Assembly (NCBI GenBank): GCA_029821875.1
Contig: JALGXW010000010.1
Location: forward strand, 67,859-131,858
From: Candidatus Hebobacterum abditum
GTDB taxonomy: Bacteria; Armatimonadota; Hebobacteria; Hebobacterales; Hebobacteraceae
Direction of reading: 5' to 3'
DNA: 64,000 nt
Positions within the stretch are counted from its first letter, which is position 1; the number at the start of each line of letters is the position of its first letter. The translations under genes and the position numbers were made by a program. This document shows positions 34,155 through 51,689 of the stretch, piece after piece. The notes beneath the pieces were generated by a model. It was given only the letters and a program-made list of their open reading frames with translations, made no database searches and was not told where the DNA came from.

Positions 34155-35075
34155 ATGAGCGAACTCCTCGAAGTCGTGCGCTACCGCGAGGTGCTGTGGA
34201 ACCTCGTGCGCCGCAACCTGAAGGTCCGCTACAAGAACTCCATCCTCGGGTTCGCCTGGTCGCTGCTGAATCCCCTCATGCAGATCGGGGTCTGGTACTT
34301 CGTGTTCAAGATCCTCTTCGGCCGGGATGAGCCGAACTTCATGGCGCTGCTGGTCACGGGCTTCTTACCCTGGCTCTTCTTCTCTCAGACCGTTCTCGAC
34401 AGCACTGCTTGTGTGACCCAGGAGATGGCGCTGGTCAAGAAGGCCTACTTCCCGCGGACGATTCTGCCGCTGTCCGTACTGCTGTCCAATCTGATCCACC
34501 TGGCCTTCGCCTTCATCGTGCTGCTGGCGCTGTACGCGGTTTGGGGCGTCGATGTCACCATCTACTATCTTTGGGTGATCCCGGCGACGCTCCTCGTGGC
34601 CGTGTTCGCCTACGGGCTCTCGGCCATGCTCGCCGCCTGGAGCGTCTTCTACGCGGATGTGAGATTCATCATCGGCAACTTGATCGGGCTATGGTTCTTC
34701 CTCACCCCGGTTCTCTATCCGGTCTACCATGTCCTGAAGGGCTCTCTGAAGAATCCCGACAACGTGGTCGAGATCTTCCTGAGCGCCCATCTCGAACCCC
34801 TGAAGAAGGTCTTCATGCTCGACCCGCTGACCATCGGCGTCGAGAGCTACCGCAGCGCGTTGCTCTATGGCGGCGAGAACTTCATCAAGATCCAGGTCAC
34901 GCCGGCCATGACCGAACTCGAGCAGGCGAACGCATTGGCCCTGCAAGAAGGGCTGCGTGCGGACTACCCCCTCCTCCCATACATCCTCGGGGCGGTCGCC
35001 ATTGCGGTCGCGACGGCCATCATCGGCCAGTGGGTCTTCCAGCGGAAGGCCGAATCTTTCGCCGAGCAAGGCTGA
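34155..35075 (+). CDS. ABC-2 type polysaccharide export permease (Wzm-like)
   Basis: RNLKVRYKNSILGFAWSLLNPLMQIGVWYFVFKILF and six-TM pattern. Confidence 0.92.
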   Translation: MSELLEVVRYREVLWNLVRRNLKVRYKNSILGFAWSLLNPLMQIGVWYFVFKILFGRDEPNFMALLVTGFLPWLFFSQTVLDSTACVTQEMALVKKAYFPRTILPLSVLLSNLIHLAFAFIVLLALYAVWGVDVTIYYLWVIPATLLVAVFAYGLSAMLAAWSVFYADVRFIIGNLIGLWFFLTPVLYPVYHVLKGSLKNPDNVVEIFLSAHLEPLKKVFMLDPLTIGVESYRSALLYGGENFIKIQVTPAMTELEQANALALQEGLRADYPLLPYILGAVAIAVATAIIGQWVFQRKAESFAEQG

Positions 35076-35081
35076 GGGCAC

Positions 35082-35864
35082 GTGTCAGCAATCGAGGCCG
35101 ACAGCATCTGGAAGGAATATCGGCGCCCGCATGTGAGAGCGACCACGTTCAAGGAGGCGGCGCTTGCCCTGCTGCGGGGGCAACGGGGATACGATGAGTT
35201 CTGGGCGCTTCAGGATGTGTCCTTCACGGTGGAGCAGGGGGAGGCGATCGGCCTGGTGGGGCCGAACGGTTCGGGCAAGAGCACCATGCTGGGTATCCTC
35301 GCCCGCGTGCTCAGGCCGACCAGAGGTGCAGTTGAGGTCACGGGGCGCGTCTGCCCTCTGCTGGAGCTGGGGACCGGATTCCATCCCGACCTGACTGGCC
35401 GAGAGAATGTCTTCCTGAACGCAAGCCTCCTGGGGTCGGGCCATCGACAGACGGCCGCCCGCTACGGCGACATCGTTGACTTCGCCGAGCTCTCCGATTT
35501 CATGGATGCCCCCGTCAAGACCTACTCCACAGGCATGGTCATCCGCCTCGGGTTCTCGATCGCGATACACATGGAGCCGGACATACTGCTGATAGACGAG
35601 GTGCTCGGCGTGGGCGACGAGCACTTTCAGCACAAGTCCTACGCCCGTCTGGCCGAGTTCAAACGGGCCGGCAAGACCCTATTCGTCGTGTCTCACAGCC
35701 TCACTGGAATCACGACGGTCTGCGACCGGGCGATCTGGCTCGATCGCGGGCACATCGTGACCGACGGAGACGCCGACGAGGTGGTCAGGCAATACCATGA
35801 TGCGGTGATAGCCTGGGAGCAGTCCCTGGCCGAGGCCAAGGCCCGCGATGCGTCTGCTAGCTGA
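35082..35864 (+). CDS. ABC transporter ATP-binding protein for polysaccharide export (Wzt-like, no C-terminal extension)
   Basis: GLVGPNGSGKSTMLGILARVL, YSTGMVIRLGFSIAIHMEPDILLIDEVLGVGDEHF; GTG start. Confidence 0.93.
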   Translation: MSAIEADSIWKEYRRPHVRATTFKEAALALLRGQRGYDEFWALQDVSFTVEQGEAIGLVGPNGSGKSTMLGILARVLRPTRGAVEVTGRVCPLLELGTGFHPDLTGRENVFLNASLLGSGHRQTAARYGDIVDFAELSDFMDAPVKTYSTGMVIRLGFSIAIHMEPDILLIDEVLGVGDEHFQHKSYARLAEFKRAGKTLFVVSHSLTGITTVCDRAIWLDRGHIVTDGDADEVVRQYHDAVIAWEQSLAEAKARDASAS

Positions 35865-37320
35865 GGCAGCGAGGGCGGCCGGCAACGTTCTTCTCGAGCC
35901 GACGACGCTCGACCGAACCACTGGGCTTGAGTTCTCCGAACGCGCGCTCGTCGTCGGCACCCGCGACGCGCCCGCCATACGCGCCGCGGTGAACCAGTTG
36001 TCGCGACGGGCCCCCTCCCTCCAGATCGAGATCGCGGGGCAGGACGTTTACATCCGTGGACTCCGCGGCGTTCGTAGTCGGCAATACGACCTGGTCTGCA
36101 TCCTGCTGACCGGCGAAGGCCATATCCGGGAGAAAGCGCTGGGCCTGCTGTCGGGCGCCCGCATCGCATTGGCCTACGGGGCAAACGGCCGCTGGTATGA
36201 GGTCCGGCGCCCGCCGGTTCACCTGAGGAACGGGAGGTGGTGGGCCAGGGCGACGCTCACAGTGCTGCTCTGCGCGCTCTACTTCAGAATAATGATCGCG
36301 CTGGCGATCGCGGATGGCCTCAGGAGGCTGCTGCCGTCAGGAGTCCTGCCCGAGCCGGCCCACCTGGCCGGCTCGCGTCCGGTCACTTTCATAGTGCCGA
36401 CCTACAACCAGCGGGACATGATGGACTTCTGTCTGCCGCCTCTGCTGGCGGAGGCCGATGGCCGGCACCGTATCATCGTGGTCGACGACGCCAGCTCAGA
36501 CGACACCGCGGAATACGTTCGCCGGCAGTATCCAGATGTGCTGCTCATCCGCCTACCTCGCAACCGCGGATTCGCGGGCGCGGTGCGCGCGGGCATTGCC
36601 GCTTCTGATACTCCTCTCTTCTCACTCATAAACACCGACGTGAAGGTGCGGCCCGGATTCCTCGACGCCCTCACGCCTCACTTTGACCGGCCCGATACGT
36701 TCGCGGTCTGCTCGCGCATCGAGCTGCCGGGCGGCTCCCAGATGGAGACCGGCAACGTCGCAGCCGCCTGGTCGGGCCTGCTCGAGCCCTACCACGTCCC
36801 TCCGTCCGGGCCGGGGCCGATCCTCTACGCAGGCGGCGCGTCGTCCATCTACGACCGGAGCAAGTACGAGGCCCTCGGCGGGTTCGAGCCCCTCTACAGG
36901 CCGCTCTACTTCGAAGACATAGAGCTGGGGTATCGGGCCTGGCGACGCGGGTGGAGGTCTCTCTTCGAGCCGCGCGCCAGCGTCTGGCACGAACGCCGGG
37001 CCTGGATCGGGGAGCGATTCGGCGACGCTTACGCGAACGAGACATTCCTGAGGAACAGCCTCCTCTTCGTCTGGAAGAACATCCGGGACCGCGGCCTGCT
37101 CGTTCAGCATCTTGGGTACGTGTGGGCGCGCCTCGCAAGCGAGATCCTGCGCGGGGAGGGCACCATGGCTCGCGCCCTCCTGCGGGCCGTTCCTTTCGTC
37201 CGCTGGGTCCTGCTCAAGAGGTGGGGCACGTACCGGAGGGGCGACCTGTCGGACGAACAGATCATGGCTCTGGCTCGTCCGCCGGCCGCCGAGGAGTTCG
37301 TGGAGGCCGAGTCGCAGTGA
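35848..37320 (+). CDS. GT2 glycosyltransferase with N-terminal Rossmann-like half-domain and TM
   Basis: N-term RALVVGTRDAP...YDLVCILLTGEGHIREKALGLLSGARI + TM; GT2 VTFIVPTYNQRDMM...VDDASSDDT...INTDV. Confidence 0.88.
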   Translation: MRLLAEAARAAGNVLLEPTTLDRTTGLEFSERALVVGTRDAPAIRAAVNQLSRRAPSLQIEIAGQDVYIRGLRGVRSRQYDLVCILLTGEGHIREKALGLLSGARIALAYGANGRWYEVRRPPVHLRNGRWWARATLTVLLCALYFRIMIALAIADGLRRLLPSGVLPEPAHLAGSRPVTFIVPTYNQRDMMDFCLPPLLAEADGRHRIIVVDDASSDDTAEYVRRQYPDVLLIRLPRNRGFAGAVRAGIAASDTPLFSLINTDVKVRPGFLDALTPHFDRPDTFAVCSRIELPGGSQMETGNVAAAWSGLLEPYHVPPSGPGPILYAGGASSIYDRSKYEALGGFEPLYRPLYFEDIELGYRAWRRGWRSLFEPRASVWHERRAWIGERFGDAYANETFLRNSLLFVWKNIRDRGLLVQHLGYVWARLASEILRGEGTMARALLRAVPFVRWVLLKRWGTYRRGDLSDEQIMALARPPAAEEFVEAESQ

Positions 37321-38519
37321 AGGTGCTGTTCGTCAGTCCGTTCCTCCCCTACCCTCCGGTGGCCGGCGGCCACCGACAGATCTGGAGTTGGCTGACGCGG
37401 CTCTCCGCGACCCATGAGACTGGCTTCGTCGGCTTCTACGAGCGCGAAGAGGAGGCCCCGAACGCGGAGCGGATTGCCGAGCACTGCTCCCTGGTGCGAG
37501 TGAGGCTCAGGAAGCCCACGCCCCACGCCTACTCCTCATTTGCCCAGCTCCCCCGTTGGGTCACGGAGTTCTTCTCGGAGGAGCTGGCGTCGGACCTCGC
37601 AGCGGCGGCACGGAGCTTCCGCCCGGATATCGTCCAGTTCCTCCACACGAACATGGCGCAGTACCACCGATATGTCAGCAACGCGTCGGTGGTCCTGACC
37701 GCGCTGGACATTGCCTCCGTCGCGCACGGGCGACGCATTGCGATGAGCAAGGACATCGAACGGCTCGAGGCGCGGCTTGAGTGGATCCGCATGTTGCGAC
37801 ACGAATCCACGATGTTCGCAAGAGCCGATCACATCATTGCGGTCTCTGAGCACGACGCCAGGGTCATCGAATCCGCGGCGCGGCACGATCGCGTGACGGC
37901 CGTCCCGCCCGGCGTCGATCGCGAGCAGCTCGAGCCGCGGGAGAGACGGCCCGAGCCCGGTCGCGTGCTCTACGTCGGCCACATGGAGCACTATCCGAAT
38001 CTCGATGGCCTGCTGTATCTCTACCGGGATATCTGGCCTCACGTGCGCCATGCATATCCGGCGGTCAGGCTGACGATCGCCGGAGGTGGCACGCGAGAGG
38101 AGCTAGGCCGCGTCGCTCCCGACACTCTGGCCCGCATGGAGCGAGACGCCACCATCGAGATCGCCGGCTTCGTGCCGGACCTGGGCGCGACGATGGACAC
38201 AGCGACCGCGATGGCGGCGCCCCTTCGACTCGGCTCCGGTGTACGCAATAAGGCCATAGAGGCGATGGCGGCCGGGCTGCCTGTGGTGGCCACTCGGCTT
38301 GGCGCCCAAGGGCTCTCCGTCGCCCACGGCCGGGAGCTGCTCCTGGCCGACGGGGCTGAGAGCTTCGCCCGCGAGCTGGTGCACATACTCAGGGACCACC
38401 GCCTGCAGGAGGCTCTATCTGCGGCCGGTCGGGATCTCGTCGCCCGCGATCACGACAATGACCGCCTCGGCAAACGTCTCGAAAGGGCTCTCATGCGCGC
38501 GGCCGGGGAGAGATCGTGA
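37317..38519 (+). CDS. GT4 glycosyltransferase
   Basis: GTG start overlapping upstream stop; VKVLFVSPFLPYPPVAGG...VLYVGHMEHYPNLDG...RNKAIEAMAAGLPVVAT. Confidence 0.9.
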   Translation: MKVLFVSPFLPYPPVAGGHRQIWSWLTRLSATHETGFVGFYEREEEAPNAERIAEHCSLVRVRLRKPTPHAYSSFAQLPRWVTEFFSEELASDLAAAARSFRPDIVQFLHTNMAQYHRYVSNASVVLTALDIASVAHGRRIAMSKDIERLEARLEWIRMLRHESTMFARADHIIAVSEHDARVIESAARHDRVTAVPPGVDREQLEPRERRPEPGRVLYVGHMEHYPNLDGLLYLYRDIWPHVRHAYPAVRLTIAGGGTREELGRVAPDTLARMERDATIEIAGFVPDLGATMDTATAMAAPLRLGSGVRNKAIEAMAAGLPVVATRLGAQGLSVAHGRELLLADGAESFARELVHILRDHRLQEALSAAGRDLVARDHDNDRLGKRLERALMRAAGERS

Positions 38520-40510
38520 GAGCACTGGTCCGCTGTGCGGCTGGGTATGTGCTCGACTTCTTCCGCGAGCGCGTGTCGGCGGAGGATTTCCGGAACGAAG
38601 ATATCAAGCGCGTCCTGCTGGCAACAGCCACCGATGACCAGACTCTTTCGACGCTACGCCGCCTCTTCCCGCAAGCCGAGTTCCGCTCGGCCGGCGCGAG
38701 GACGGACCTTTGGCGCGTGCGTCGGCTGCGGTTCGATGTCGCGTGCGTTTCAATGCGCGGGGGGGACGCGCGCAGCCGACTCATTCCGCTCCTGAGTGGA
38801 GCAAAACACACCTTGCTCGTGCCCTCGCCAGACTACCTCTACCGGCTTGGCCTGCGGCGCGGCGTCGCCGACATCTACTGGGCGCTCGTCGACCGCCTCG
38901 TGCTCGCGCCGATCGCACTTCTATGGCTCCTTCTGCTCTCCGTAGCCGCCTACGGAAGTGGGCTGGTGTGGCGCCTCCGCGCGGCCGAGCGAACGCCGCC
39001 CTCCTGGCGGCCGCGGCGCCTCCTCCTCCTCCGACTGATGCCGACGAACGTCTTCCTCGCTCTGCTCAAGCGCCTGCGTAGGGACTTCCCAGGAATTCAC
39101 CTGACGGCCCTGCTGGCTTCCGACGAAGGCCGCGCCGAGGCGAAGGAGGCGGCCAGCGAGGTCATGTTGGCTCGCCGCATGGGGCTGCGCAGTCTTCTTC
39201 GGCGCCTCCGGCGCGGTCGCTTCGACGGCGTCCTGCTGGCAGGGGGGGCTGACTACGGGCTGCGCACCAGCTACCTCAGGGCGGCGCTTGCGGCTCGGCT
39301 GGTGCCTCGCGCTGAGCGCCACCAGTGGGAAATCGGCCAGGCGCTGCCTGGACGACCGCTGTGGCGTGCCTTCGCGCGTGCCCTGCTGCGCAGGGATTCG
39401 CGCTGGCGACAAGCTCCGGGGCTGCTGGGTCGGCTCGGCCTGCGCCGCCACTACTCGCGAGAGCCGTCAGCCGGCCCACCGATAGTCCAGATCGGCATTG
39501 CAGAGGGCTGCAACTACCACTGCCTGTTCTGCCCGTTCCACAGCCCCACAGCCGAAGAAGGCCACAGAGACGCCGACTTGCCGCGCATGTCGTACGAAGT
39601 CTTCGCACGACTGCTCGGCGATCTCAAGCGGATGGGCACCAAGGCCATAGACATCTGCGGCGACGGCGAGCCACTCATGCACCCCGAGGCGCTGGAGATG
39701 GTCGAGCTGGCGAGGGACATGGGCTTCGAGGTGACGTTGGCGACCAACGCTGCGCTGCTGACCGACGCGCGTGCAAGACGCCTGGTCGATCTGGCCGTGA
39801 GGCGGATGCATGTGAGCTTCAACGCCGCGACCGACGACATCTACCAGCAACTTCATGCAGGTGCGCCGCCTGGCGCACGACGCCGCATCATCGCTCGGCT
39901 CCGCGCCATGGCCGAGTATGCCGAGCAGGAGGGTCTCCGGCCGATTGACGTCGAGTTCTCGGCCGTCCTCAACCGCCTCAACATGCAGCAAATCCCACAG
40001 ATGGTGGAGGCCGCGCACGAGGCCCGCGCCCGCTGGTTCATGCTCATCCTGATGGGCCCCGTGGCAGGCGCAGAAGACCTCCTGCCGCGACCGGATGATT
40101 GGATACTCATCCGGGGCGACCTGGACCGGGCTGCCGCCAGGGCGAACGAACTCGGAGTCAACACGAACCTGGACTCCATCCGACCCGGTGCGGGCGCGGA
40201 GGGAACCGGTGCGGTCTACGAGCGGGTGCCTTGCCACATCGGACACGAGTACGCGTTGATTACGGCCGACGGCAACGTCATGTTCTGCTGCCAGTGTTCA
40301 CAGCCGCTGGGGAACCTGCACGAAGACAGCTTTCCCGAGATATGGTACTCTGAGGCCTACCGCCAGGCGAGGCAACAAGCGAGGGAGCTGCCGCGCACCC
40401 GCGAGCAGTTGCCGAGCTGTGAGTGCTTCACTGCGTGCTCGCATGTGGTCGTGAACCTCGAGGTCTTCAGGAAGCTCCACGGCGAGCGCGCGCTGAGGTC
40501 TGTGCTGTGA
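38516..40510 (+). CDS. radical SAM/SPASM-like protein with N-terminal membrane and duplicated Rossmann-like half-domains
   Basis: IGIAEGCNYHCLFCPFH (CxxxCxxC at 39509-39532); DICGDGEPLMHPE; C-term MFCCQCSQPLGNLHEDSFPEIWYSE...CECFTAC. Confidence 0.9.
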   Translation: MRALVRCAAGYVLDFFRERVSAEDFRNEDIKRVLLATATDDQTLSTLRRLFPQAEFRSAGARTDLWRVRRLRFDVACVSMRGGDARSRLIPLLSGAKHTLLVPSPDYLYRLGLRRGVADIYWALVDRLVLAPIALLWLLLLSVAAYGSGLVWRLRAAERTPPSWRPRRLLLLRLMPTNVFLALLKRLRRDFPGIHLTALLASDEGRAEAKEAASEVMLARRMGLRSLLRRLRRGRFDGVLLAGGADYGLRTSYLRAALAARLVPRAERHQWEIGQALPGRPLWRAFARALLRRDSRWRQAPGLLGRLGLRRHYSREPSAGPPIVQIGIAEGCNYHCLFCPFHSPTAEEGHRDADLPRMSYEVFARLLGDLKRMGTKAIDICGDGEPLMHPEALEMVELARDMGFEVTLATNAALLTDARARRLVDLAVRRMHVSFNAATDDIYQQLHAGAPPGARRRIIARLRAMAEYAEQEGLRPIDVEFSAVLNRLNMQQIPQMVEAAHEARARWFMLILMGPVAGAEDLLPRPDDWILIRGDLDRAAARANELGVNTNLDSIRPGAGAEGTGAVYERVPCHIGHEYALITADGNVMFCCQCSQPLGNLHEDSFPEIWYSEAYRQARQQARELPRTREQLPSCECFTACSHVVVNLEVFRKLHGERALRSVL

Positions 40511-43029
40511 GCCACGTGCTGATCTGCGGCGCCGCAGGCTACACAAATGTGGGTGATGACGCTATTCTCCTAGGCATCCTCGCCCAGTTGGGCGAGGCCC
40601 TTCCCGGCCGTCGTCTCCGGGTGGCCGGCGGGCCAGAGTTGGGATCCCTCCTGTGCGACTCCGAGGCCGCACCTATCTCGTACGATGATCGCGCTGAGCT
40701 GGCACGCGCAGTAGAAGAGGCCGACCTCGTGATCCTCGGCGGAGGCGGCCTGCTTTACGACGTCGGCTACGGCGCCGATCTGCAGCGGCTGCTGAGCGAC
40801 CCGCCGGACCGGTATTGGCTATACGAGATGGCGCGGATCGCGGCCGCCTCGGCCGCCGCGGAGCGTCCAGTGATGCTCTACAGCATCGGTGCAGGCCCTC
40901 TGGTCACGACCTCGGCACAACGTGTGGCCAAGTTCGTCTGCGCACAGGCCCGCGCGACCACCCTGCGCGACCAGCAGTCGGCAGATCTCCTGGCATCATG
41001 TTCCGTGCCGAAGGCCCGGCTCCACATCTCGGCCGACCCGGCGATCATGCTGGGGCCCGCCGCCGGCGACGACCTAGCGCAGCGCCTCGGCTTGGCCGGT
41101 CGGCCGCGCCCGTGGATAGCAGTGAATGTTCGCCCGTGGGGGGATAAGAACCAAACCGCGGCGCTCGTGCGCGCAGTGGCGGAGGCTCTCCGCGCGGTCC
41201 GCGGGCGACTCGGCGGCACGGCCATGCTCCTCCCCTTCCAGCGGCTCCACGAGGACGACCTGCCGGTACTGCGGGAGATTGCCGATGCGACTGCCGACTG
41301 CGAGCCCGTCCTCGTTGATGCCCCCCTCGGCCCGGGCGAAGTGACGACCTTGTTCTCCCAGTGCGACGCCGTGATCGGCATGCGGATGCACGCTCTCGTC
41401 TTGGCACTGAGTGCCGGAACGCCCTTCGTCGGCATATCGTATGACTCGAAGGTCGAGGAGTTCGCCGCCGCGGCAGGCGCAGGTGAGTACACTCACTCGG
41501 CCTCAGAAGTCACGGCCGAGTCGCTCGCCGACTCCTGCCAGAGCGTGCTGCAGCAGGCCGAGCTGCGAGGCCGCCTGACCGACGCGAGGGAGAGGATGCG
41601 CGAGTCGGCCGCGACGTCGCCGGAACTCGCGAAGAGCCTGCTCGACACTGGCCGCGTTCCGGCGGCCCGGCCGGCTGCCGTGTCTCCCGCGGAGGCCGGT
41701 CGAATCCGCGTGCTCATGCGCATCAGGCCCGATCACCTCGAGCGACCAGGTGGCGACACGGTCCAGATGAACAAGACGAAGGAACAGCTGGAGGAGCTCG
41801 GCGTCGAAGTGGCGGTGAGCGCCGACGAGTCACCGGATCTGTCTTCGTACGACCTGGTGCACGCCTTCAACCTCGGAAGGCCAGAGGAGCCATCCACGCA
41901 CTGTCGTCAGGCCGCCGAGGCAGGGAAGGCGGTGGCGCTTTCAACGGTCTATTGGGACTTCGCCGAGTTCTGGGAGTGGGGAGACACGGACTACTGGCTG
42001 CTGCCTCGCCCGGAGGAGGGACTGCCCGAGCCACGGATGGCGCCAGTCCCGGGCCCGATCGAGGTGCGGCGCCGGGCCCGACTCGATCAACTCCGGCGCA
42101 ATGCCGTCGACTGCGCGCACGTCTATCTGCCGAACGGGGATGGGGAGGCCGAGCTGCTGTCCGACAGCTACGCCATGGATATGAGCCGCACTGTCGTAGT
42201 GACGAACGCGGTAGATGAGGCCTTCTTCACTGCGAAGCCGGAGGTGTTTGTCGAGAAGTACGGGCTGCGCGACTTCGTCTTGTGCGCCGCCCGGATCGAG
42301 AAGAGGAAGAACCAACTCGCACTGGTGGCGGCTTTGCGAGGCACCGGGCTTCCACTCGTGATGGTCGGGCAGGCGAACCCCCAGGAGTACCTCGACCTGT
42401 GCCGCCGCTACGCCGATGAGAACGTGGTGTTTATCGACGCCGTGAACCACGAGGAACTCGCAAGCGCCTATGCCGCCGCGAAGGTCCATGCTCTGCCAGG
42501 GTGGTTTGAGACGCCCGGTCTCTCCAGCCTGGAGGCCGCCGCCGCCGGACGCAACATCGTTTCGACGGATCGAGGCACGGCGAGGGAGTACTTCGGCGAC
42601 ATGGCGTGGTACTGCGACCCCCGAAGCATCGACTCGATCCGGGAGGCCGTGCTCGCTGCCTACGAGTCGGCTCCTCGGGATGACCTGCGGGCACGTGTCC
42701 GCGAACGCTGCACCTGGCGTCGAGCCGCGGAGAGCACGCTGGCGGGCTATCGCATGGCGCTCGGGCTGCACCAGGAGACGCGAGCGGAGGAGCGGCGCGA
42801 GGCCGCCGTCCTCGCCCTGAGAAGCCACACTGACTACCTCGCAAAGCTCGCCGCTGACCGAGCCTATGAGGCCCAGCGCATGAGGGAGTGGGGGGAGACC
42901 GTGGAGGCCGAACTCAAACGGCTTCAGGAGGAGTTCGGGAGAGTCACCTCCCGGCGACTGCACCGCTGGTCATCGGCCGTTGCACGCGCGGGGTGGGCCG
43001 TGCTGCGGGTGCTTGGAGTGAAGCAGTGA
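40507..43029 (+). CDS. CsaB-type polysaccharide pyruvyl transferase fused to GT4 glycosyltransferase
   Basis: N-term GAAGYTNVGDDAILLGIL, LGGGGLLYDVG, GMRMHALVLALSAGTPFVGISYDSKV; C-term IRVLMRIRPDHLERPGGDTVQMNKTKEQLEELG, PGWFETPGLSSLEAAAAG. Confidence 0.88.
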   Translation: MSHVLICGAAGYTNVGDDAILLGILAQLGEALPGRRLRVAGGPELGSLLCDSEAAPISYDDRAELARAVEEADLVILGGGGLLYDVGYGADLQRLLSDPPDRYWLYEMARIAAASAAAERPVMLYSIGAGPLVTTSAQRVAKFVCAQARATTLRDQQSADLLASCSVPKARLHISADPAIMLGPAAGDDLAQRLGLAGRPRPWIAVNVRPWGDKNQTAALVRAVAEALRAVRGRLGGTAMLLPFQRLHEDDLPVLREIADATADCEPVLVDAPLGPGEVTTLFSQCDAVIGMRMHALVLALSAGTPFVGISYDSKVEEFAAAAGAGEYTHSASEVTAESLADSCQSVLQQAELRGRLTDARERMRESAATSPELAKSLLDTGRVPAARPAAVSPAEAGRIRVLMRIRPDHLERPGGDTVQMNKTKEQLEELGVEVAVSADESPDLSSYDLVHAFNLGRPEEPSTHCRQAAEAGKAVALSTVYWDFAEFWEWGDTDYWLLPRPEEGLPEPRMAPVPGPIEVRRRARLDQLRRNAVDCAHVYLPNGDGEAELLSDSYAMDMSRTVVVTNAVDEAFFTAKPEVFVEKYGLRDFVLCAARIEKRKNQLALVAALRGTGLPLVMVGQANPQEYLDLCRRYADENVVFIDAVNHEELASAYAAAKVHALPGWFETPGLSSLEAAAAGRNIVSTDRGTAREYFGDMAWYCDPRSIDSIREAVLAAYESAPRDDLRARVRERCTWRRAAESTLAGYRMALGLHQETRAEERREAAVLALRSHTDYLAKLAADRAYEAQRMREWGETVEAELKRLQEEFGRVTSRRLHRWSSAVARAGWAVLRVLGVKQ

Positions 43030-44123
43030 GGCTCACTGTCGTCGTGCCAACCCACAATCGATGTGAGCTACTGGGACGCACAGTGCGCAGCCTCTTGGAG
43101 CAGTCGGCCTCGCCGGCCGACTACGAGATAGTCGTCGTGGACGATGGCTCGACGGATGCCACGAGGCCGGCGGTTGAGTCCGTGGGGGCGCCGGAGGGGC
43201 GGCTTCGGTACTTCGGGCAGGAGAACAAGGGACCGGCGGCTGCTCGCAACCGCGGTGTTCTAGAAGCACGCGGACAGATCATTCTCTTCACAGGCGATGA
43301 CTGCATCCCGGCCGACGACCTCGTCGAGCAGCATCTGCAGGCACACGACGAGTGCGGCGATGTCGGCGTCGTGGGATTGGTGACCTGGCATCCCGAAGTC
43401 GAGAAGACTCCCTTCATGGCCTATCTCGAAACGGGGCCGCAGTTCGGCTTTGGGAAGATCGAGAATCCCAAGGATGTCCCCATCTGGCACTTCTACACGG
43501 CAAACTGCTCCGTGCGGCGACACTGGCTGGAGCAGGTGGAGGGCTTCGACGAGGACTTCAGGCACGCCGCCTTCGAAGATATGGAGGCGGCCTACCGGAT
43601 GAAGAGGCGAGGACTTCGCATCGTCTACCGGCCGAGTGCGAAGACCTATCACCATCATCCGACGACGTTCCAGCAGCATCTCGCAAGACAGCGCCTCACA
43701 GGCATGTCGGCGGCTCTGCTCTACCGGAAGCATCCTGAACTCAAGTTCGAGTTGGGGATCGCGCACGCGGCTCGCATGACAACCGCCCTGAAGTTCTGGG
43801 AGGCCGCCACTGAGTATGCGTTTGCGCTGGGGGTCCGCGAGGGCATCACCGGCCAGAAGCAGCCTGAGTGGGATGAGGTCGAGGCAGTGAGCACAGAGCC
43901 GCGCCGCGCCGAGGCCGGCCGCGCGTGGGTGCGCGAGGTGTTCGGCACGATGGACCCAGACAAGGAAGAGCTGATCGACCTCCGTGCTGAACTGGAGCGG
44001 ACCAAGAAGGAATGGGAGCGCGTCACCTCTCGCCGCCTGTACCGCTGGTGCGAGGGAGTGGCCCGCCTGGGCTGGTCGGTCTTGCACAGGCTCGGCCTGG
44101 GGCGTCGCACAATGGCGGGATAA
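43026..44123 (+). CDS. GT2 glycosyltransferase
   Basis: VRLTVVVPTHNRCELLGRTVRSLLEQ, VVDDGSTDATR, ENKGPAAARNRG; GTGA coupling. Confidence 0.92.
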   Translation: MRLTVVVPTHNRCELLGRTVRSLLEQSASPADYEIVVVDDGSTDATRPAVESVGAPEGRLRYFGQENKGPAAARNRGVLEARGQIILFTGDDCIPADDLVEQHLQAHDECGDVGVVGLVTWHPEVEKTPFMAYLETGPQFGFGKIENPKDVPIWHFYTANCSVRRHWLEQVEGFDEDFRHAAFEDMEAAYRMKRRGLRIVYRPSAKTYHHHPTTFQQHLARQRLTGMSAALLYRKHPELKFELGIAHAARMTTALKFWEAATEYAFALGVREGITGQKQPEWDEVEAVSTEPRRAEAGRAWVREVFGTMDPDKEELIDLRAELERTKKEWERVTSRRLYRWCEGVARLGWSVLHRLGLGRRTMAG

Positions 44124-45094
44124 TGCCCAGAGTCTCAGTCGTCGTCCCCAACTACAACGGAGAGCTCCTCCTGCCCGCGTGTCTCAACGCGCTGCGCGCG
44201 CAGACGCTTCGCGACTTCGAGGTCATCGTCTCCGATGACGGCTCCAGCGACGGCTCTGTCGCTCTAGTCTCGCAGGAGTACTCGGAGGCGGTCGTTGTGA
44301 GGTCCGCCACGAATCACGGCTTCTGCCGGGCGGCGAACGCGGGCATGGCGGCCAGCAGAGGCGATTTCGTCGCTCTGCTCAACAACGACGCTGAAGCAGA
44401 TCCTTCTTGCCTGGAAGAGCTGACCGCGGCCATGGAGGAGGATGAGCGGATCGGCATCTGCGCCGCGAAGATGGTCTACCGGGATGATCCCGGCCGAATA
44501 AACTCCGCCGGGCACGCCTGCGGGCCGGACGGAGTGGTCGTCGACATCGGGCGTGGGGAGCGAGACAGCGAGTGGTTCGGGATGGGGCGTGAGGTGCTGG
44601 GCGCCTCCGGCGGTGCCGCCCTGTATCGGCGCCGGATGCTGGCGGAGATCGGTCTGTTCGATCCGGATTTCGCCTTCAGCTTCGAGGACGCTGACCTGAA
44701 TTGGCGGGCCCAATGGGCCGGCTGGCGCGCTCGGTATGTGCCCACGGCCATCGTGAGACACCGGGAGGGCGCGACCCGGGGGATACGCAGCACCCGCGCC
44801 GTGTGCCTTGGCCTGAGGAATGCCGTGCACGTGTGGACGAAGGACTGGCCCGCAGTGTCGCTCCTGCGCCACTTCCTCGGCTTGTGGCACGGACTTCGCC
44901 ATTCGGCCGCGTCGCTGATGCGCCGAGGCCACGGTGGAGCGCTCCCCCAGGCTGTCGGAGGCATCTTCTCTCAGATACCCCTGATGCTGAGGCGGCGGCG
45001 TGAGATCCGGCGTGGCCGGCGGGTGCCTCTGGCGCGGTTTGAAGAACTCCTGGCGATGGGGCTCCAGCACACGCGCAGGCCACGGGAGCATTAG
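44123..45094 (+). CDS. GT2 glycosyltransferase (rhamnosyltransferase-like)
   Basis: MPRVSVVVPNYNGELLLPACLNALRAQTL, SDDGSSDGSV, LLNNDAEADPSCLEEL; TAATG coupling. Confidence 0.92.
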   Translation: MPRVSVVVPNYNGELLLPACLNALRAQTLRDFEVIVSDDGSSDGSVALVSQEYSEAVVVRSATNHGFCRAANAGMAASRGDFVALLNNDAEADPSCLEELTAAMEEDERIGICAAKMVYRDDPGRINSAGHACGPDGVVVDIGRGERDSEWFGMGREVLGASGGAALYRRRMLAEIGLFDPDFAFSFEDADLNWRAQWAGWRARYVPTAIVRHREGATRGIRSTRAVCLGLRNAVHVWTKDWPAVSLLRHFLGLWHGLRHSAASLMRRGHGGALPQAVGGIFSQIPLMLRRRREIRRGRRVPLARFEELLAMGLQHTRRPREH

Positions 45095-45097
45095 CGG

Positions 45098-45589
45098 ATG
45101 CCGCGCCGTCTCCTCGCCATGAGACTGGTCCCGGCAGACGCGTTCACCGGGCTGCTGCAAGAGCTGCGCCGCAGGGAGCCAGACGCGGAGATAACCGCTC
45201 TGGCGGCGTCTGACCACATCGATGGTGCCAGCGAAGTCATTGACTGGCGCCGGACAGGTGGCCGCCAGCTTGCGACGGAGCTCCGGCGCCGCTGTTTCGA
45301 CGTTGTGGTGCTCGCGCACGGGCAGGATCATTACGCGACGCGCGCCTACTGGAGAGCGGTGCTCCTGGTCTCGCTCACCGGCGCGCGTGAAGTGGTCCTT
45401 TGCGAGGAAGGCCAGCTCGGCCGGCGGCACAGCGTGTTCGCCGGGGCCGGCCGGGCTGTCCTGCAGGCAGTCCAAGAGACCTGTGGTGCGGCATTTGCGC
45501 TACTGGTCCTGCTGCCAGTGGTCCTGATGGCTGTGGTCACTGATCTGGCTGAGGGCACTAGCCTCGCGATCGGCAGGAGGCGCGGTTGA
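45098..45589 (+). CDS. stand-alone Rossmann-like half-domain protein with C-terminal TM (GT9 N-domain-like)
   Basis: RRLLAMRLVPADAFTGLLQELRRREPDAEITALAASD...LRRRCFDVVVLAHGQDHYATRAYWRAVLLVSLTGAREVVL + TM. Confidence 0.55.
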   Translation: MPRRLLAMRLVPADAFTGLLQELRRREPDAEITALAASDHIDGASEVIDWRRTGGRQLATELRRRCFDVVVLAHGQDHYATRAYWRAVLLVSLTGAREVVLCEEGQLGRRHSVFAGAGRAVLQAVQETCGAAFALLVLLPVVLMAVVTDLAEGTSLAIGRRRG

Positions 45590-45646
45590 GCGGACAAAAG
45601 ATAGTCTTGGCCGGAGCTTGTGAACCGGCTGAGTGAGGAGAGCTGA

Positions 45647-46687
45647 ATGAGGATTCTGGTGACGGGCGTCGCCGGCTTCATGGGGGGACATGTGGCCCAG
45701 GGGCTGGCGTCAGTGGGATACGAGGTGGTCGGCATAGACGACCTGAGCGGGGGGTTCGAGGAGAACGTGCCTGAAGGCGTGCACTTCTTTGAGCTCGACT
45801 TGCGGGACAGCGAGAAGACGGAGGCGGTCGTCGGCGAGTACCCGCCCGATGTGCTCTGCCACCTGGCGGCCAACGCCCGCGAGGGTGCCTCCCAGTTTCA
45901 GCCCCGCGACGTGTGCGGCCGGAATCTCATGGCCTACGCGAACGTCCTCGTGCCTGCCATCAGAAGCGGCGTGAAGAAGGTCGTGCTTTACAGCTCAATG
46001 GCCGTCTACGGCGACCAACAGGCTCCTTTCGATGAATGCATGCCGCGCCAGCCGGCCGACATCTACGGTGTGAACAAGACCGCGATGGAGGAGATGACCG
46101 AGATCCTGGCCGACGTGCACGAGTTCATGTACACCACCATTCGGCCCCACAATGTCTTTGGAGAGCGCCAGAGTCTGCAGGATCCCTTCCGCAACGTGGT
46201 CGGGATCTTCATGAACCGGATAATGCGCGGCGAGCCGCTCTACGTGTACGGCGATGGTGAGCAGAAGAGGGCGTTCAGCTACATTGGCGATTCGCTTCCA
46301 GCCTTCCTGCGGGCGGCCGAGCTAAGGCCGGAGCTCGACGGCGAAGTCGTGAACGTGGGTGGCAAGACGCCCATCACCGTGAACGAGCTGATCGAGATCG
46401 TGGGCACCGAATGCGGCGACGTAGTCGAGGTGATCTACCTGCCCGAACGGCCGCGAGAGGTGACGCATGCCTACTCCACGTGGCAAAAGTCCGTAGAGCT
46501 ACTGCGCTACGAGGAGCGCTTCGGCCTGAGAGAGGGGATTCGCCGCATGGCCGAATGGGCGCGCGCGAAGGGGCCTCAGCCGTGGAGCGATGAGCGGCTG
46601 GAGTTGCCAAGTGCGAAGGCACCACACATCTGGCTGACCGAAGAAGACCGACAAGAAGGGATTCCCGGCAAACGAAGCCAGCCGTGA
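45647..46687 (+). CDS. NAD-dependent sugar epimerase/dehydratase (SDR)
   Basis: MRILVTGVAGFMGGHVAQGL, YSSMAVYGDQ, YGVNKTAMEEM, RPHNVFGERQ. Confidence 0.93.
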   Translation: MRILVTGVAGFMGGHVAQGLASVGYEVVGIDDLSGGFEENVPEGVHFFELDLRDSEKTEAVVGEYPPDVLCHLAANAREGASQFQPRDVCGRNLMAYANVLVPAIRSGVKKVVLYSSMAVYGDQQAPFDECMPRQPADIYGVNKTAMEEMTEILADVHEFMYTTIRPHNVFGERQSLQDPFRNVVGIFMNRIMRGEPLYVYGDGEQKRAFSYIGDSLPAFLRAAELRPELDGEVVNVGGKTPITVNELIEIVGTECGDVVEVIYLPERPREVTHAYSTWQKSVELLRYEERFGLREGIRRMAEWARAKGPQPWSDERLELPSAKAPHIWLTEEDRQEGIPGKRSQP

Positions 46688-49641
46688 GCCGACTCCGCGC
46701 GAGCTTGATAATCTCCAGTTGGAACGGCCGACACCTCTTGGAGACGTGTCTTCCGCGCGTTCTGCGCGCCCTTGCTCACGCCGGGGGCAGGCACGAGGTC
46801 ATCGTTGTAGACGACGGCAGCGCCGACGACACGGTCGAGTTCATTCACCGCGAGTTCCCGGAGGTGCGGCTGCTGCCCCTGGCTCGCAACCTGCGCTTCG
46901 CCCGCGCCAACAACGCCGCGGCTCGCGTGGCGGAAGGCGACATCCTCGTCTTCCTGAACAACGATATGCACGTATCCGTGGATTTCCTTTCGCCTCTGCT
47001 CCGCCACTTCGAGAATCCATCTGTCTTCGCCACAACCGCCCGGATCGAGATGCAGCCGCGCCGTGTTGCAGGTGGCCTCATCCAAGAGACAGGACTTGTG
47101 CGGGCCCGATTCGTGGGCGGCTTCTTCGTGCTCCAGCACGAGCATCCGATCACCGAGGAGCCGGTTCGGGTGCTCTATGCCGGTGGGGGCTCCAGCGCCG
47201 TGCGGCGGGACCAGTTCTTCGAACTTGGGGGCTTCGATCGCTTGTTCCGCCCATTCTACTTCGAGGACCTCGACGTGTCCTATCGGGCGCAGAAGAGGGG
47301 CTGGCACGTCGTGTATGAGCCGAAGAGCCGGATGGTGCACATGCACCGCCGCACAAACACCCCGGCGAACTTCCCCGGCCGCTACGTCGATCTGATGTTC
47401 GGCAAGAACAGCTTGCTGTTCACGTGGAAAGTGTTGACCGATTCCCGGCTCGTCCGCCAGCACTTCAGGGCCTTGTGGGCCAGGCTGATGAGGCCGAGTC
47501 TCGACCCGGGGCTCGCCGCAGTCTTCTTCCGAGCGGCGGCCCAGCTGCCGGAACTGGTGCGCTCCCGCCATCGTGCGCGGCGCGGCGAGGCGCTGACCGA
47601 CCAGCAGACCATTGCCCTCGCGGCCGCTGCCCGCGGAGACGAGGCGACAGACGCCGGGAGCATACCATACGCCTCCAGCGGCCGCGGCAAGCGGGTGCTT
47701 GTGGTCGGCTTCTCCCCACTGCCGTTCGAGAAGGAGAGACGCATCGGCGCCCTCTGCTTCCGAACCTGGCACGTCACCCAGGCGATGCTGGCGGCGGGCC
47801 ACGAGGTCACACTGGTCGCCGTTCGGATGTCGGGCGCCTATGAGCAGGAGAGCACTCGTCCCCCGGCACTGCGCTTTCGCGGCAGCCACTTCACCTATTA
47901 CTCGCTCGACCATGCCACCTTCGAGGACGGGCGGATGCTGCGACGGATCTGCGAGCGGGTGGACCCCGAGGCGATCGTGACGGTTCATTCGTACCCAACA
48001 TGGGCTGCCTCTCGGCTGCCATCAGATGCTCCCATGTGGGCCGACCTGAATGGCTATGCCATGACCGAGGCCCAGGCGCAGGCGGCCGTGATCCGGGATG
48101 ACTCGCCTGTGACCGAGGCCTGGAAGTGGGAGCAGGCCGCGCTGGCCAGGGCCGATGTCTTCTCCGTGGTGTCCGTGCGTCAGAAGTTCGCGCTCATCGG
48201 AGAGCTTGCCGCCGTCGGCCGGCTCACGAGTGGCAACTACGGAGACGACCGCGTCCACTACATGCCGAACGCGATCGATCCCGAGCCGTATCGCCATGCG
48301 CGACGGGCCTTGCGCGGGACAGTCGTCGGCGAGGGCGACTTCGTGGTCCTCTGGGCCGGGGGCTACAACACGTGGACCGACGTCGACACGCTCTTCGGGG
48401 GGCTGACCGCGGCGATGCGGGAGGAGCCCCGTCTCCGGTTTGTCTCGCTCGGCGGCGCCATGCCCGGCCGAGACGAAACGACCTACTACCGGTTCAGGCG
48501 ACTGGTGGATGAGAGCGACCTCGCGGATCGTTTTGTCTTCGCGGGGTGGGTGCCCACTGACGACGTGCCCAATTACTACTTCGAGAGCGACGTTGGTATC
48601 AACATCGACCGCTACAGCTACGAGATGCTCATCGGATGTAGGTATAGGATACTGGACATGCTGCGCGCCGGGCTGCCTGTGGTCACAACGCTCGGCACCG
48701 AGATCAGCCATCTGGTCGAACACGAACGGCTCGGCGCTACCTTCGCGCCGGGAGACGCACAGGGGCTCAAGGGCGCTCTGCTCGAGCTGGCGCGAGACGA
48801 ACCACGGCGTCGCCGATCCGCGACCCGCGCGCGAGACTACGTCCTCAAGAATCGACTCGCCGAAACCGTGATGCGTCCGCTGAAGGAGTGGACGGCCGAC
48901 CCGAGGCCCTCGGCCGACCGTCTCCGGGCGCCGAGGAGCGAACCCGCGCTCTGGCAGCCCCGCAGCTTCGCGGGGCGGCTCGGGAAGGCCTTGGAGACGC
49001 GCGGCCTCCGAGGCGGAATCGGCGAGGTGGCGCGACTCTTGGCGAGCGGCCTCGCGGAACTGCTCAGCAGGGCATTCGTGCGGAGGCGAGCAGTCAGACC
49101 CTGGGGGCTGGATCCGCGGGAGCCCCCGCACACCACTCTCGTCATCCGCGCCACCGATCTGAGCACCACGACCCAGGCGGTGCGGCGCGTCCAGCAGGGC
49201 TATCCGGCCGCTGAGATCGCGGTCCTAGTGCCGGAGTCACTCGCCGAGGAGACGCGGTACGAGGCGGACGCCGACATCATCCCGGCCGCGAGGTTAGAGG
49301 GTTGCGGCTACCGGGTGAGCAGCGGCTTGGTGAACGCGCTGCGCGAGCGCAGGTTCGACACCGTGGTCGTGGCCGGCGAGGGGAATCGCCGGGCAGAAGC
49401 GTTGGCCCTCCTGTGCGGCGCAGACAGGCGAGTGGAAGTGCGGCACGATGGCGCAGCCCATGTCTTCTGGATCGCTCCGTACAAGCCCCTTGCCGCGGTT
49501 CTGGGCATCGTCGTGGGCGCGGTCGAGAAACTCATACTCACCACACTCGTGGGCCTGATCTGGGGAAGCCTCGCGGCGGAAGGCCGTCTGTGGAGCCTCC
49601 GTCGCCGCCTGGGCGTCGGAGGTGGTCAAGCGCACAACTAG
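46684..49641 (+). CDS. trimodular GT2-GT4 glycosyltransferase with C-terminal Rossmann-like half-domain and TM
   Basis: LIISSWNGRHLLETCLPRVLRAL (GT2); KRVLVVGFSPLPFEKERRIGALCFRTWHVTQAM...(GT4); TLVIRATDLSTTTQAVRRVQQGYPAAEIAVLVPE...FDTVVVAGEGNRRAEALALLCGADRRVEV. Confidence 0.85.
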   Translation: MSRLRASLIISSWNGRHLLETCLPRVLRALAHAGGRHEVIVVDDGSADDTVEFIHREFPEVRLLPLARNLRFARANNAAARVAEGDILVFLNNDMHVSVDFLSPLLRHFENPSVFATTARIEMQPRRVAGGLIQETGLVRARFVGGFFVLQHEHPITEEPVRVLYAGGGSSAVRRDQFFELGGFDRLFRPFYFEDLDVSYRAQKRGWHVVYEPKSRMVHMHRRTNTPANFPGRYVDLMFGKNSLLFTWKVLTDSRLVRQHFRALWARLMRPSLDPGLAAVFFRAAAQLPELVRSRHRARRGEALTDQQTIALAAAARGDEATDAGSIPYASSGRGKRVLVVGFSPLPFEKERRIGALCFRTWHVTQAMLAAGHEVTLVAVRMSGAYEQESTRPPALRFRGSHFTYYSLDHATFEDGRMLRRICERVDPEAIVTVHSYPTWAASRLPSDAPMWADLNGYAMTEAQAQAAVIRDDSPVTEAWKWEQAALARADVFSVVSVRQKFALIGELAAVGRLTSGNYGDDRVHYMPNAIDPEPYRHARRALRGTVVGEGDFVVLWAGGYNTWTDVDTLFGGLTAAMREEPRLRFVSLGGAMPGRDETTYYRFRRLVDESDLADRFVFAGWVPTDDVPNYYFESDVGINIDRYSYEMLIGCRYRILDMLRAGLPVVTTLGTEISHLVEHERLGATFAPGDAQGLKGALLELARDEPRRRRSATRARDYVLKNRLAETVMRPLKEWTADPRPSADRLRAPRSEPALWQPRSFAGRLGKALETRGLRGGIGEVARLLASGLAELLSRAFVRRRAVRPWGLDPREPPHTTLVIRATDLSTTTQAVRRVQQGYPAAEIAVLVPESLAEETRYEADADIIPAARLEGCGYRVSSGLVNALRERRFDTVVVAGEGNRRAEALALLCGADRRVEVRHDGAAHVFWIAPYKPLAAVLGIVVGAVEKLILTTLVGLIWGSLAAEGRLWSLRRRLGVGGGQAHN

Positions 49642-49651
49642 GGAGGGATGT

Positions 49652-50236
49652 GTGAGTCGCCCGGCGGTCTTCCTGGATCGCGATGGCACGATAGTCCGCG
49701 AGGCCGATTACCTGCGGTCGCCGGAGGAACTGCGCCTGCTCCCCCGCGCAGCCGATGCGATCCGCCGACTGAACGAGATTGGCTTCGCGGTCGTCGTGGC
49801 AACGAATCAGTCCGGAGTCGCGCGGGGCCTGCTCACCGAGGACGACCTGGCTCAGGTGCACAGGACACTCCAACAGCGGCTGGCCAAGCGGGGCGCGCGC
49901 CTCGACCACATCTACTTCTGTCCACATCACCCAACTGCCGGCAGGGGGCGGTACCGCCAGGAATGCTCCTGCCGCAAGCCAGCGCCGGGGATGCTCCTGC
50001 GAGCGGCAGAGGAACTCGGCCTTGACTTGAGCCGGTGCTTCGCCGTGGGCGACAGCCCCCGCGACCTCATCGCGGGCAGGCAGGCCGGGTGCAGAACGGT
50101 CCTCGTCCGCACGGGCTATGGCGGGCGTGCCGAGGCCGAATCGGACGATCCCCTGCCCGCCGATTATGTCGCCGACGACCTGGCCGCGGCGGTAGAGTGG
50201 ATAGTCGAGCAGCACGGGACGCGCTCAGGCCGATGA
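49652..50236 (+). CDS. HAD-IIIA histidinol-phosphatase/heptose-bisphosphate phosphatase family (GmhB-like)
   Basis: VFLDRDGTIVREADYL, FAVVVATNQSGVARG, FCPHHPTAGRGRYRQECSCRKPAPGML, VGDSPRDLIAGRQAG. Confidence 0.92.
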   Translation: MSRPAVFLDRDGTIVREADYLRSPEELRLLPRAADAIRRLNEIGFAVVVATNQSGVARGLLTEDDLAQVHRTLQQRLAKRGARLDHIYFCPHHPTAGRGRYRQECSCRKPAPGMLLRAAEELGLDLSRCFAVGDSPRDLIAGRQAGCRTVLVRTGYGGRAEAESDDPLPADYVADDLAAAVEWIVEQHGTRSGR

Positions 50237-51177
50237 AGGCCACTGTGATCATCGTGAACCACAACGGCCGGGACCTCTTGGCCGAGTCCGTGCCGGCCGC
50301 GCTGGCGGCCGCCCGCGCGGCGGGAGAGCACGACGTAGTCGTCGCCGACGACGCGAGCTCCGACGACAGCGTCGCCTTCGTGCAGGACAACTTCCCCGAG
50401 GCTAAAGCGCTGGCGCTACCGAAGGGCGGATTCGGAGCCGCCTGCAACACCGCGGTGGCGGCGGCCGAGAGCGAGGCCGCCGTCATTCTCAACAACGACG
50501 TTGTCGTCACGACCGACTTCCTGCCCCCGCTCCTCGACGACCTCGGTCAGCCCGACGTGTTCGCTGTCGGCTGCAAGTTCCTGAACCCCGATGGCACGCT
50601 CACAGACGCGCTTGGCAATCGCACCTCTGGTGAGTGGCAGGGGGGACTGCTCCACATTCGCCACGAGACGCGGCCGGAGCGGCTCACGGAAACCTGCCCG
50701 CAGTTGTACCCGAATGGCGGTGGCATGGCGTTCTGGCGAGATAAGTGGCTGGAGCTTGGGGGATTCGACCCCTTGTTTCGGCCGCTTTACTGGGAGGACG
50801 TAGACATCGGCTATCGCGCGTGGGGACGCGGTTGGCGGGTCTTGTTCGAGCCGCGCAGCATCGTCCATCACGACCAGGGGAGCACGATGGCGCGCCTGCA
50901 CCGTCCCGCTCACATCGAGCGCATGTCCGCCAAGAACGGCATCCTCTTCGCCTGGAAGAACCTGCTCGACGGCGCCCGATTCCGCCGGGCGGTCGCGGCG
51001 CAGGCCCGCTGGGCAGCGGACGATGTTCTCATCGGCGGCCTGCCGCCCCGCACGGCCGCGCTCTGGTGGGCCTTCCGGCAGCTCGGCCAGGCCTGCCGCG
51101 CCCGCGCCCGAGAGCGACGGGAGCGGATTCTCTCGGACGACGAGATCCTGAGCGCCTCTGCAGGAGGGAGCCCGTGA
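50233..51177 (+). CDS. GT2 glycosyltransferase
   Basis: KATVIIVNHNGRDLLAESVPAAL, DDASSDDSVAF, ILNNDVVV, LFRPLYWEDVDIGYRA; ATGA coupling. Confidence 0.92.
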   Translation: MKATVIIVNHNGRDLLAESVPAALAAARAAGEHDVVVADDASSDDSVAFVQDNFPEAKALALPKGGFGAACNTAVAAAESEAAVILNNDVVVTTDFLPPLLDDLGQPDVFAVGCKFLNPDGTLTDALGNRTSGEWQGGLLHIRHETRPERLTETCPQLYPNGGGMAFWRDKWLELGGFDPLFRPLYWEDVDIGYRAWGRGWRVLFEPRSIVHHDQGSTMARLHRPAHIERMSAKNGILFAWKNLLDGARFRRAVAAQARWAADDVLIGGLPPRTAALWWAFRQLGQACRARARERRERILSDDEILSASAGGSP

Positions 51178-51689
51178 CTGGGAAGAGCGGGGCCAGCGTG
51201 CTCTTGCTGACGTTCGCTCGCCGCGGTGAAGAGCAGGCGATCCGCGACGCGCTGGCACACATGCGCTCCGAGATCCCCGACGCAGACGTCTTCGCCGTCG
51301 GCACGCCCGTCTCGGCGCCGCTCCTTCAGGAGGCCGGTGTGGAGAGCGTGATCATATACGGGGCGGGGCGCGGCGCGCGGGCCGTAGTGCGAGAGTCCCG
51401 CTCGCGGCGTCCAAAGGCGGCCGCGATCATCTACTGGGAGCCGCGTCTTGCGGGGCACCTCAAGCTGGAGGCCCTCGCCCTCCTCGCCGGCGCGAGGGTC
51501 ACGCACCGGTTCCCCCCCGGGTCAGATGCGAGGCCCGTCGGGCGGCTTGGCCTCATGTCGTCCGTAGCCTCGAAATCGGCGAAGTCGCTTCTGTGCGCGG
51601 CCGCGGGCGCGGCTCTGTGTGGCATCGCGTTCGCGTGCCTGCTGGTGAGTCAGACTCTCGCGGGAGGCAGCCGTGCGCGTAGGTCTTGA
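51174..51689 (+). CDS. Rossmann-like half-domain protein with C-terminal TM
   Basis: SVLLLTFARRGEEQAIRDALAHMRSEIPDADVFAV...LKLEALALLAGARVTHRF + TM LLCAAAGAALCGIAFACLLV; GTG start. Confidence 0.5.
   Translation: MTGKSGASVLLLTFARRGEEQAIRDALAHMRSEIPDADVFAVGTPVSAPLLQEAGVESVIIYGAGRGARAVVRESRSRRPKAAAIIYWEPRLAGHLKLEALALLAGARVTHRFPPGSDARPVGRLGLMSSVASKSAKSLLCAAAGAALCGIAFACLLVSQTLAGGSRARRS

Follow-up and report, generated by a model that had tools for sequence, protein, structure and literature searches.

The 64,000-nucleotide stretch of DNA analysed here (the window; Candidatus Hebobacterum abditum, assembly GCA_029821875.1, contig JALGXW010000010.1, positions 67,859 to 131,858) carries a polysaccharide locus in which a small Rossmann-like domain is found six times, in the modules S1 to S6. 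Judged from profile comparisons, the six segments are one superfamily, and the module is the N-terminal, acceptor-side half of a GT9 glycosyltransferase, i.e. a GT9-derived orphan half-domain and not a GT9 enzyme. Taken together, the data make it rather likely that the modules act as non-catalytic, membrane-seated, acceptor-side accessory domains, one per enzyme, which resemble Alg14 in plan.

Six copies of one divergent domain

All six modules lie on the forward strand. S1 (35848-36372) is the N-terminal part of a GT2 protein (open reading frame, ORF, 35848-37320), with the Rossmann part starting at about 35938 and a hydrophobic helix at about 36256-36312. S2 (38516-39010) and S3 (38996-39475) stand in tandem in a radical S-adenosylmethionine (SAM)/SPASM protein (ORF 38516-40510); the Rossmann part of S2 starts at about 38609 and its hydrophobic helix is at about 38897-38953, while S3 continues into the radical SAM domain. 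S4 (45098-45589; helix about 45482-45538) is a stand-alone gene starting 3 bp past the stop of a GT2 gene. S5 (49084-49641) forms the C-terminus of a GT2-GT4 protein (ORF 46684-49641), and the residues EK occur within its helix (about 49495-49551). The second stand-alone gene, S6 (51174-51689; helix about 51591-51647), has a GTG start and shares its first 4 bp with the stop region of another GT2 gene. An earlier note on this DNA, made from the sequence alone, had listed six such segments, and all of them were recovered at or very near the places it had assigned. The motifs it had read are real as well, the proline of the helix end 'xxxPxAxI' being at least 90% conserved over 34 copies.

The same note had held that its reading would fail if a hidden Markov model (HMM) of one segment did not detect the others. 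Orthologues of each segment were drawn from relatives and used for group HMMs and profile-profile comparison, and these orthologue profiles do detect other segments. The S3 HMM matched S4 at E values of about 1e-20 to 1e-21 and S5 at 1e-7 (S3/S4 to S5 range, 1e-8 to 1e-3), the S4 HMM detected S3, S5 and, weakly, S2, and the S2 HMM detected S1 (S1-S2, 1e-5 to 1e-4). The profile-profile probabilities were 99.5 for S3-S4, 97 for S4-S5, 94 for S1-S2 and 93 for both S1-S5 and S4-S6 (scores 48-136). Eight of the 15 module pairs scored 37-136, far above the column-shuffled (at most 21) and reversed (at most 17) nulls; other pairs were intermediate (20-33), and S2-S6 and S1-S3 were near the null. With a merged S3+S4+S5 profile S6 reached 95.8%, S2 92.4% and S1 92.0%. 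S6 is the weakest member, joined mainly via S4 (93%) and via this merged set. The paralogues are very divergent (approx. 15-25% identity); S3 and S4 are close to each other (44%), and S6 and S2 are distant.

Relationship to GT9

The note had called the modules half-GT9-like, and this description proved firmer than its reader could know. In hhalign comparisons with GT9, represented by 39 sequences of the GT9 search from the same phylum, the values were 95.4% for S5, 95.1% for S4, 93.9% for S6, 92.9% for S3, 47% for S1 and 14% for S2, and 97.0-97.4% for the merged modules. Twelve other families of the locus, several of them Rossmann-like or GT-B, were treated alike as controls; among them the pyruvyl transferase came highest, with 19.5%. 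The module is collinear with the GT9 N-terminus from the first residues to beta5, over about 115 residues.

An HMM of the 34 modules was searched against 291 Armatimonadota genomes. It returned half-modules within the family to which the window belongs, followed by proteins as long as GT9 enzymes usually are; the N-termini of the latter matched at E values of about 1e-6 to 1e-12. In the loci that were fetched, each matched ORF was either a half-module or the carrier of a GT9 C-domain (E 1e-26 or better), with the exception of three GT9-cluster ORFs cut by the locus ends. The top PDB match of the module HMM was WaaF of E. coli (residues 19-110, E 0.0087), and the GT9 structure 3tov was matched at E 1. 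No Pfam match above the curated cut-off was found within the module in any of the 34 copies, nor an NCBIfam match above the curated cut-off within the copies of the window. Since the PF01075 match begins only about 70-80 residues into a GT9 protein (comparison with contig C91), Pfam is silent on the modules.

The AlphaFold model of S4, made with the 34-row alignment, has a predicted local distance difference test (pLDDT) score of 89.6 and shows the order b-a-b-b-a-b-a-b-b followed by a 49-residue helix (strands 4-10, 31-36, 46-49, 69-74, 98-103 and 106-111; helices 13-26, 55-65, 82-94 and 113-161). In the model of the whole radical SAM protein, the confidence of which is low as a whole (pLDDT 64), both modules have the expected strand-helix order.

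Missing catalytic parts

A Gly-Asp pair is found within the first 35 residues in 32 of the 39 GT9 rows. On inspection of the alignment none of the 34 modules was seen to have this catalytic pair in its beta1-alpha1 loop, which is shortened or altered; S6 has an invariant RRGEE (Gly-Glu) at this position. The earlier note had stated that the C-terminal nucleotide-sugar domain of GT9 is lacking here, and this was confirmed for the modules and for the window: a GT9 C-half model of our own gave no match among all ORFs of the window at E values up to 10. When the whole genome was searched with PF01075 for a C-half that could act in trans, matches were obtained only on other contigs, inside ORFs of 361-845 amino acids. 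Thus no GT9 C-half that could complete an Alg14-like pair was found in the window, an Alg13-like C-half not having been searched for specifically.

Coupling of the modules to particular enzymes

Four of the five GT2s of the locus and one radical SAM protein own modules. S1 precedes a GT2 domain (36373-37320), S2-S3 precede the radical SAM and SPASM domains (39476-40510), and S5 follows GT2 and GT4 domains (46684-49083). The note had listed S4 and S6 as standing alone. What is new is that the stand-alone modules are not free agents, each of them being coupled to a GT2 in every genome examined. S4 starts 3-5 bp past the stop of the same GT2 (44012-45094 in the window) in 5 of the 5 genomes having S4, and in 7 of 7 genomes the start of S6 lies within the end of another GT2 gene (50233-51177, start approximate), with an overlap of 4 bp in most of them. 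Since the stand-alone modules abut or overlap GT2 stops, the module is regarded as a partner of specific enzymes, either fused or translationally coupled. In the contigs of genus g5 (G005 and G007) S4, its GT2 and the epimerase are apparently absent together. In two distant loci, L119 (from a different family of Armatimonadota, next to an ATP-binding cassette (ABC) exporter) and L121 (from the same order), a GT2 is likewise followed by a module, with an overlap of 4-10 bp. This genetic coupling shows a partnership of each stand-alone module with its own GT2, not a shared scaffold. The fifth GT2 (42888-44123) and the pyruvyl-transferase/GT4 protein have another shared tail instead. A GT2-S4 fusion that appeared in locus L045 was an artefact of out-of-frame reference slices, and the gene boundaries were redone. 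Plasmid-borne copies of S4 were searched for and none was found.

Hydrophobic helix and probable membrane association

The modules were said in the note to be mostly followed by a transmembrane helix. A hydrophobic stretch of 19 residues indeed follows beta6 in five of the six modules, with Kyte-Doolittle values of 2.06-2.76 in the copies of the window, and a hydrophobic peak (1.36-3.03) was found in 29 of 29 copies of S1, S2, S4, S5 and S6. The enzymes served by the modules have no hydrophobic helix, the GT2 domain joined to S1 included (hydropathy maxima 1.07-1.18). Among the other proteins of the locus that were tested only the exporter permease has a clear one, and one GT4 (GT4e) is borderline (1.61). 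In the glycosylation enzymes clear hydrophobic helices are confined to the modules, which makes the membrane anchoring proposed by the note plausible, as far as hydropathy can tell. S1 and S2 precede enzymes with cytoplasmic substrates, and both flanks of the helix often carry a net positive charge, S6 being the clearest case; a re-entrant or in-plane helix is therefore more probable than a single-pass span.

Conserved loops and proposed function

All six modules are under purifying selection. Between two members of the genus, the ratio of nonsynonymous to synonymous substitution rates (dN/dS) was 0.16-0.30 for the modules and 0.10-0.23 for three neighbouring enzymes. Within-group identity peaks at beta4, its loop and helix 3; for three modules (S2, S3 and S5) this extends to beta5-beta6. 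The residues conserved in the beta4 loop differ from paralogue to paralogue, and the same is true of those near the beta5-beta6 hairpin in four of them (S1, S2, S3 and S5). The motifs are GxWY...PP in S1, PSPDYxYRLG in the S2 hairpin, GGADY and QWExG in S3, VAGxGxxRAE and the invariant DGAAHxF in S5 (where KPL is invariant too), and the invariant FARRGEE and GHLKLE in S6. In beta6 of S5 the mean identity is up to 0.92. Substrate binding by HepI depends critically on two loops of its N-domain, those of the 60s and the 120s (PMC8124905). Alg14 provides the acceptor site and the membrane association for the soluble Alg13, and bridges Alg7 and Alg13 (PMC8993221, PMC8945535).

We propose that the module arose from the acceptor-side N-half of a GT9 enzyme: the catalytic motif and the C-domain that binds the donor were lost, a hydrophobic helix was added at the C-terminus, and the half-domain was multiplied and its copies joined to enzymes of one polysaccharide locus, either as fusions or through coupled translation. 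The module would hold an enzyme that is soluble by itself at the inner surface of the cytoplasmic membrane, and it would present or position the membrane-bound growing glycan or the carrier lipid, as Alg14 does for Alg13. A bolder form of this proposal, which we hold to be doubtful, is that of a multi-copy adapter. The dead GT9 acceptor half would be an acceptor-presenting subunit on which GT2, GT2-GT4 and radical SAM/SPASM enzymes dock, each paralogue would read a different intermediate of one and the same lipid-linked glycan, and the modules would, besides the enzymes, help to determine when each sugar is added and when the radical SAM step takes place.

Some observations weigh against an acceptor-side accessory domain. 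S3 has no hydrophobic helix, and in the shortened modules S1 and S2 a part of the domain, the beta2-beta3 stretch, is missing. The conservation of the loops could reflect protein-protein contact instead of acceptor binding. Finally, the Foldseek search which the note had suggested gave, for the S4 model, generic Rossmann matches above E 1e-3, with 3tov at rank 9 and WaaF at rank 40; GT9 is among the matches but is not singled out. Since GT9 is not identified by the fold alone, its assignment rests on the sequence profiles, and the modelled fold is consistent with GT9 without being diagnostic.

The Foldseek result would also suit a generic Rossmann domain having no special relation to GT9, the likeness being convergent or very distant. 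The top structural matches are assorted Rossmann proteins, and the PDB sequence matches ranked below WaaF are mostly idealised designed proteins. We regard this as very improbable: the profile comparison rejects the twelve control families in spite of their Rossmann-like and GT-B members, only GT9 proteins were found beyond the half-modules among the matches examined, and the collinearity runs from the first residues to beta5. Just as improbable is a split glycosyltransferase in which the module and a C-half in trans make a working GT9-type enzyme. Split GT-B enzymes have precedents in Alg13/14 and EpsE/EpsF, and the locus includes GmhB, a phosphatase of the heptose pathway; what speaks against it is the window without a GT9 C-half, the placement of the PF01075 matches of the genome on other contigs, and the loss of the catalytic pair from every module.

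A protein-protein scaffold, which the note had suggested as one possible role beside acceptor binding, is an unlikely but more serious case. The modules would bind each other (e.g. S4-S6 or S2-S3) and gather the enzymes of the locus, acceptor binding having been lost. Six different copies in one locus, the S2-S3 tandem in the radical SAM protein, the paralogue-specific loops and the bridging of Alg7 and Alg13 by Alg14 (PMC8993221, PMC8945535) all agree with it. However, each stand-alone module pairs with one particular GT2, which fits a private subunit just as it fits a common scaffold, and the paralogues are very divergent. If, on the other hand, the Rossmann half were a degenerate relic and the hydrophobic helix did the work, the module would be a plain membrane tether, in keeping with the helix in five of the six modules and with its lack in the attached enzymes. 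The purifying selection on all six modules, the sharply conserved paralogue-specific loops and the retention of the Rossmann part in S3, which has no helix, make such a tether scarcely probable.

The locus and its setting

The window (G000:C52) is part of a 4.3-Mb genome, the nearest named relatives of which are metagenome-assembled genomes labelled Candidatus Hebobacteria and Armatimonadota. Hebobacteria is an uncultured candidate class proposed on such genomes from marine sediment (PMC10290634). The locus is one cluster for a surface sugar polymer and depends on an ABC exporter. It starts with this Wzm/Wzt-type polysaccharide exporter (34155-35864; permease 34155-35075, ATPase 35082-35864; forward strand, as are the partner enzymes given above), which is followed by GT2, GT4, radical SAM/SPASM, pyruvyl-transferase/GT4, GT2, epimerase, GT2-GT4, GmhB phosphatase, GT2 and GT4 genes, and it ends with an extracytoplasmic function (ECF)-like sigma and anti-sigma pair. 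The gene order is similar in the relatives G001, G002, G003, G005, G006 and G007 within the limits of their contigs, some of the reference slices used in this comparison (GT2b, GT2c, GT4b and GT4d) being out of frame.

The GmhB-type D-glycero-D-manno-heptose 1,7-bisphosphate 7-phosphatase (49622-50236, forward strand), which exceeds the NCBIfam cut-off, hints at a possible heptose in the polymer, a curious coincidence in view of the GT9-derived modules. The sigma/anti-sigma pair (52872-54064), immediately downstream, is kept with the locus in several relatives and may regulate it. A second add-on is the C-terminal tail of about 38 residues common to the GT2 42888-44123 and the pyruvyl-transferase/GT4 protein (40423-43029). 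Its consensus is RVTSRR(L/Y)xRWxxxVARxGWxVLxxLG (60% identity, E 2e-13); it is kept in the relatives and is possibly a membrane-association element.

Distribution and evolution

The distribution covers the 291 genomes of Armatimonadota and the range is a lower bound. A profile scan with S5 alone gave six loci, apparently relatives of the same set. A seventh, more distant copy in the same genome is the N-terminal module of a second radical SAM/SPASM protein (G000:C21:35198-35635; L112 4119-5759). The same protein with its module was found in L113, L116, L117, L122 and L125, outside the polysaccharide locus and with no clear polysaccharide context. In another family of the class (G010), a 595-residue protein (L126 5538-7322) has a possible distant half-GT9-like C-terminal segment, the match being weak (E 3e-4).

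The tree was built from 129 columns of 41 modules and the GT9 rows, three 'GT9' rows that are apparently GT4 stretches being disregarded. In the Shimodaira-Hasegawa-like approximate likelihood ratio test (SH-aLRT) the modules split from the true GT9 rows with a support of 99. Each of the groups S1 to S5 is separated from all other rows by a single branch (85-99). For S6 the corresponding support is low (65), and the module of L119 groups with it (95). The paralogues therefore predate the genera of the family. Most deep forks have no resolution, and a single origin of the modules is not rejected by the approximately unbiased test (p-AU 0.61), nor is it proven.

Comparison with known systems

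How soluble polysaccharide glycosyltransferases, which must reach a membrane-bound acceptor, are ordered is an open question. This lineage seems to employ one enzyme's acceptor half as a detachable add-on to several different enzymes, and the locus offers a concrete, testable case. The domain family is absent from Pfam and NCBIfam, and its members would otherwise be read as 'hypothetical protein' or as unexplained extensions of glycosyltransferases and radical SAM proteins. No description of the module was found in the openly licensed full texts, and within these the same statement of the earlier note stands.

With GT9 (WaaC/WaaF, PF01075) the module shares, over the collinear residues, beta1, the helix ending in FPxA, beta2, beta3, the LRxxxFD-beta4 segment, the xGxxR-helix-LLSGA segment and beta5. 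Unlike GT9, it has neither the C-terminal donor domain nor the Gly-Asp catalytic loop, carries a hydrophobic helix where the N-domain should go on, and serves as an add-on to other enzymes. To Alg14 it is likened in plan, the sequence comparisons having covered GT9, GT4, GT2 and the other families of the locus. As in the Alg14/EpsE type (PMC8993221, PMC8945535), an N-terminal, acceptor-side GT-B half with a membrane helix serves another glycosylation enzyme as a separate chain: S4 and S6 stand alone, and a helix, by hydropathy only, is present in five of the six modules. However, Alg14 and EpsE are related to MurG (GT28/GT1) and form a single active site together with a C-half, whereas the modules are GT9-derived, have no GT9 C-half in the window, occur in several copies per locus and have GT2 (GT-A), GT2-GT4 and radical SAM partners. 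Short recurrent glycosyltransferase tails, such as the RVTSRRLxRW tail of the same locus, are also add-ons recurring on several enzymes, but the module differs from them in being a folded half-domain of enzyme origin and not a coil or amphipathic tail.

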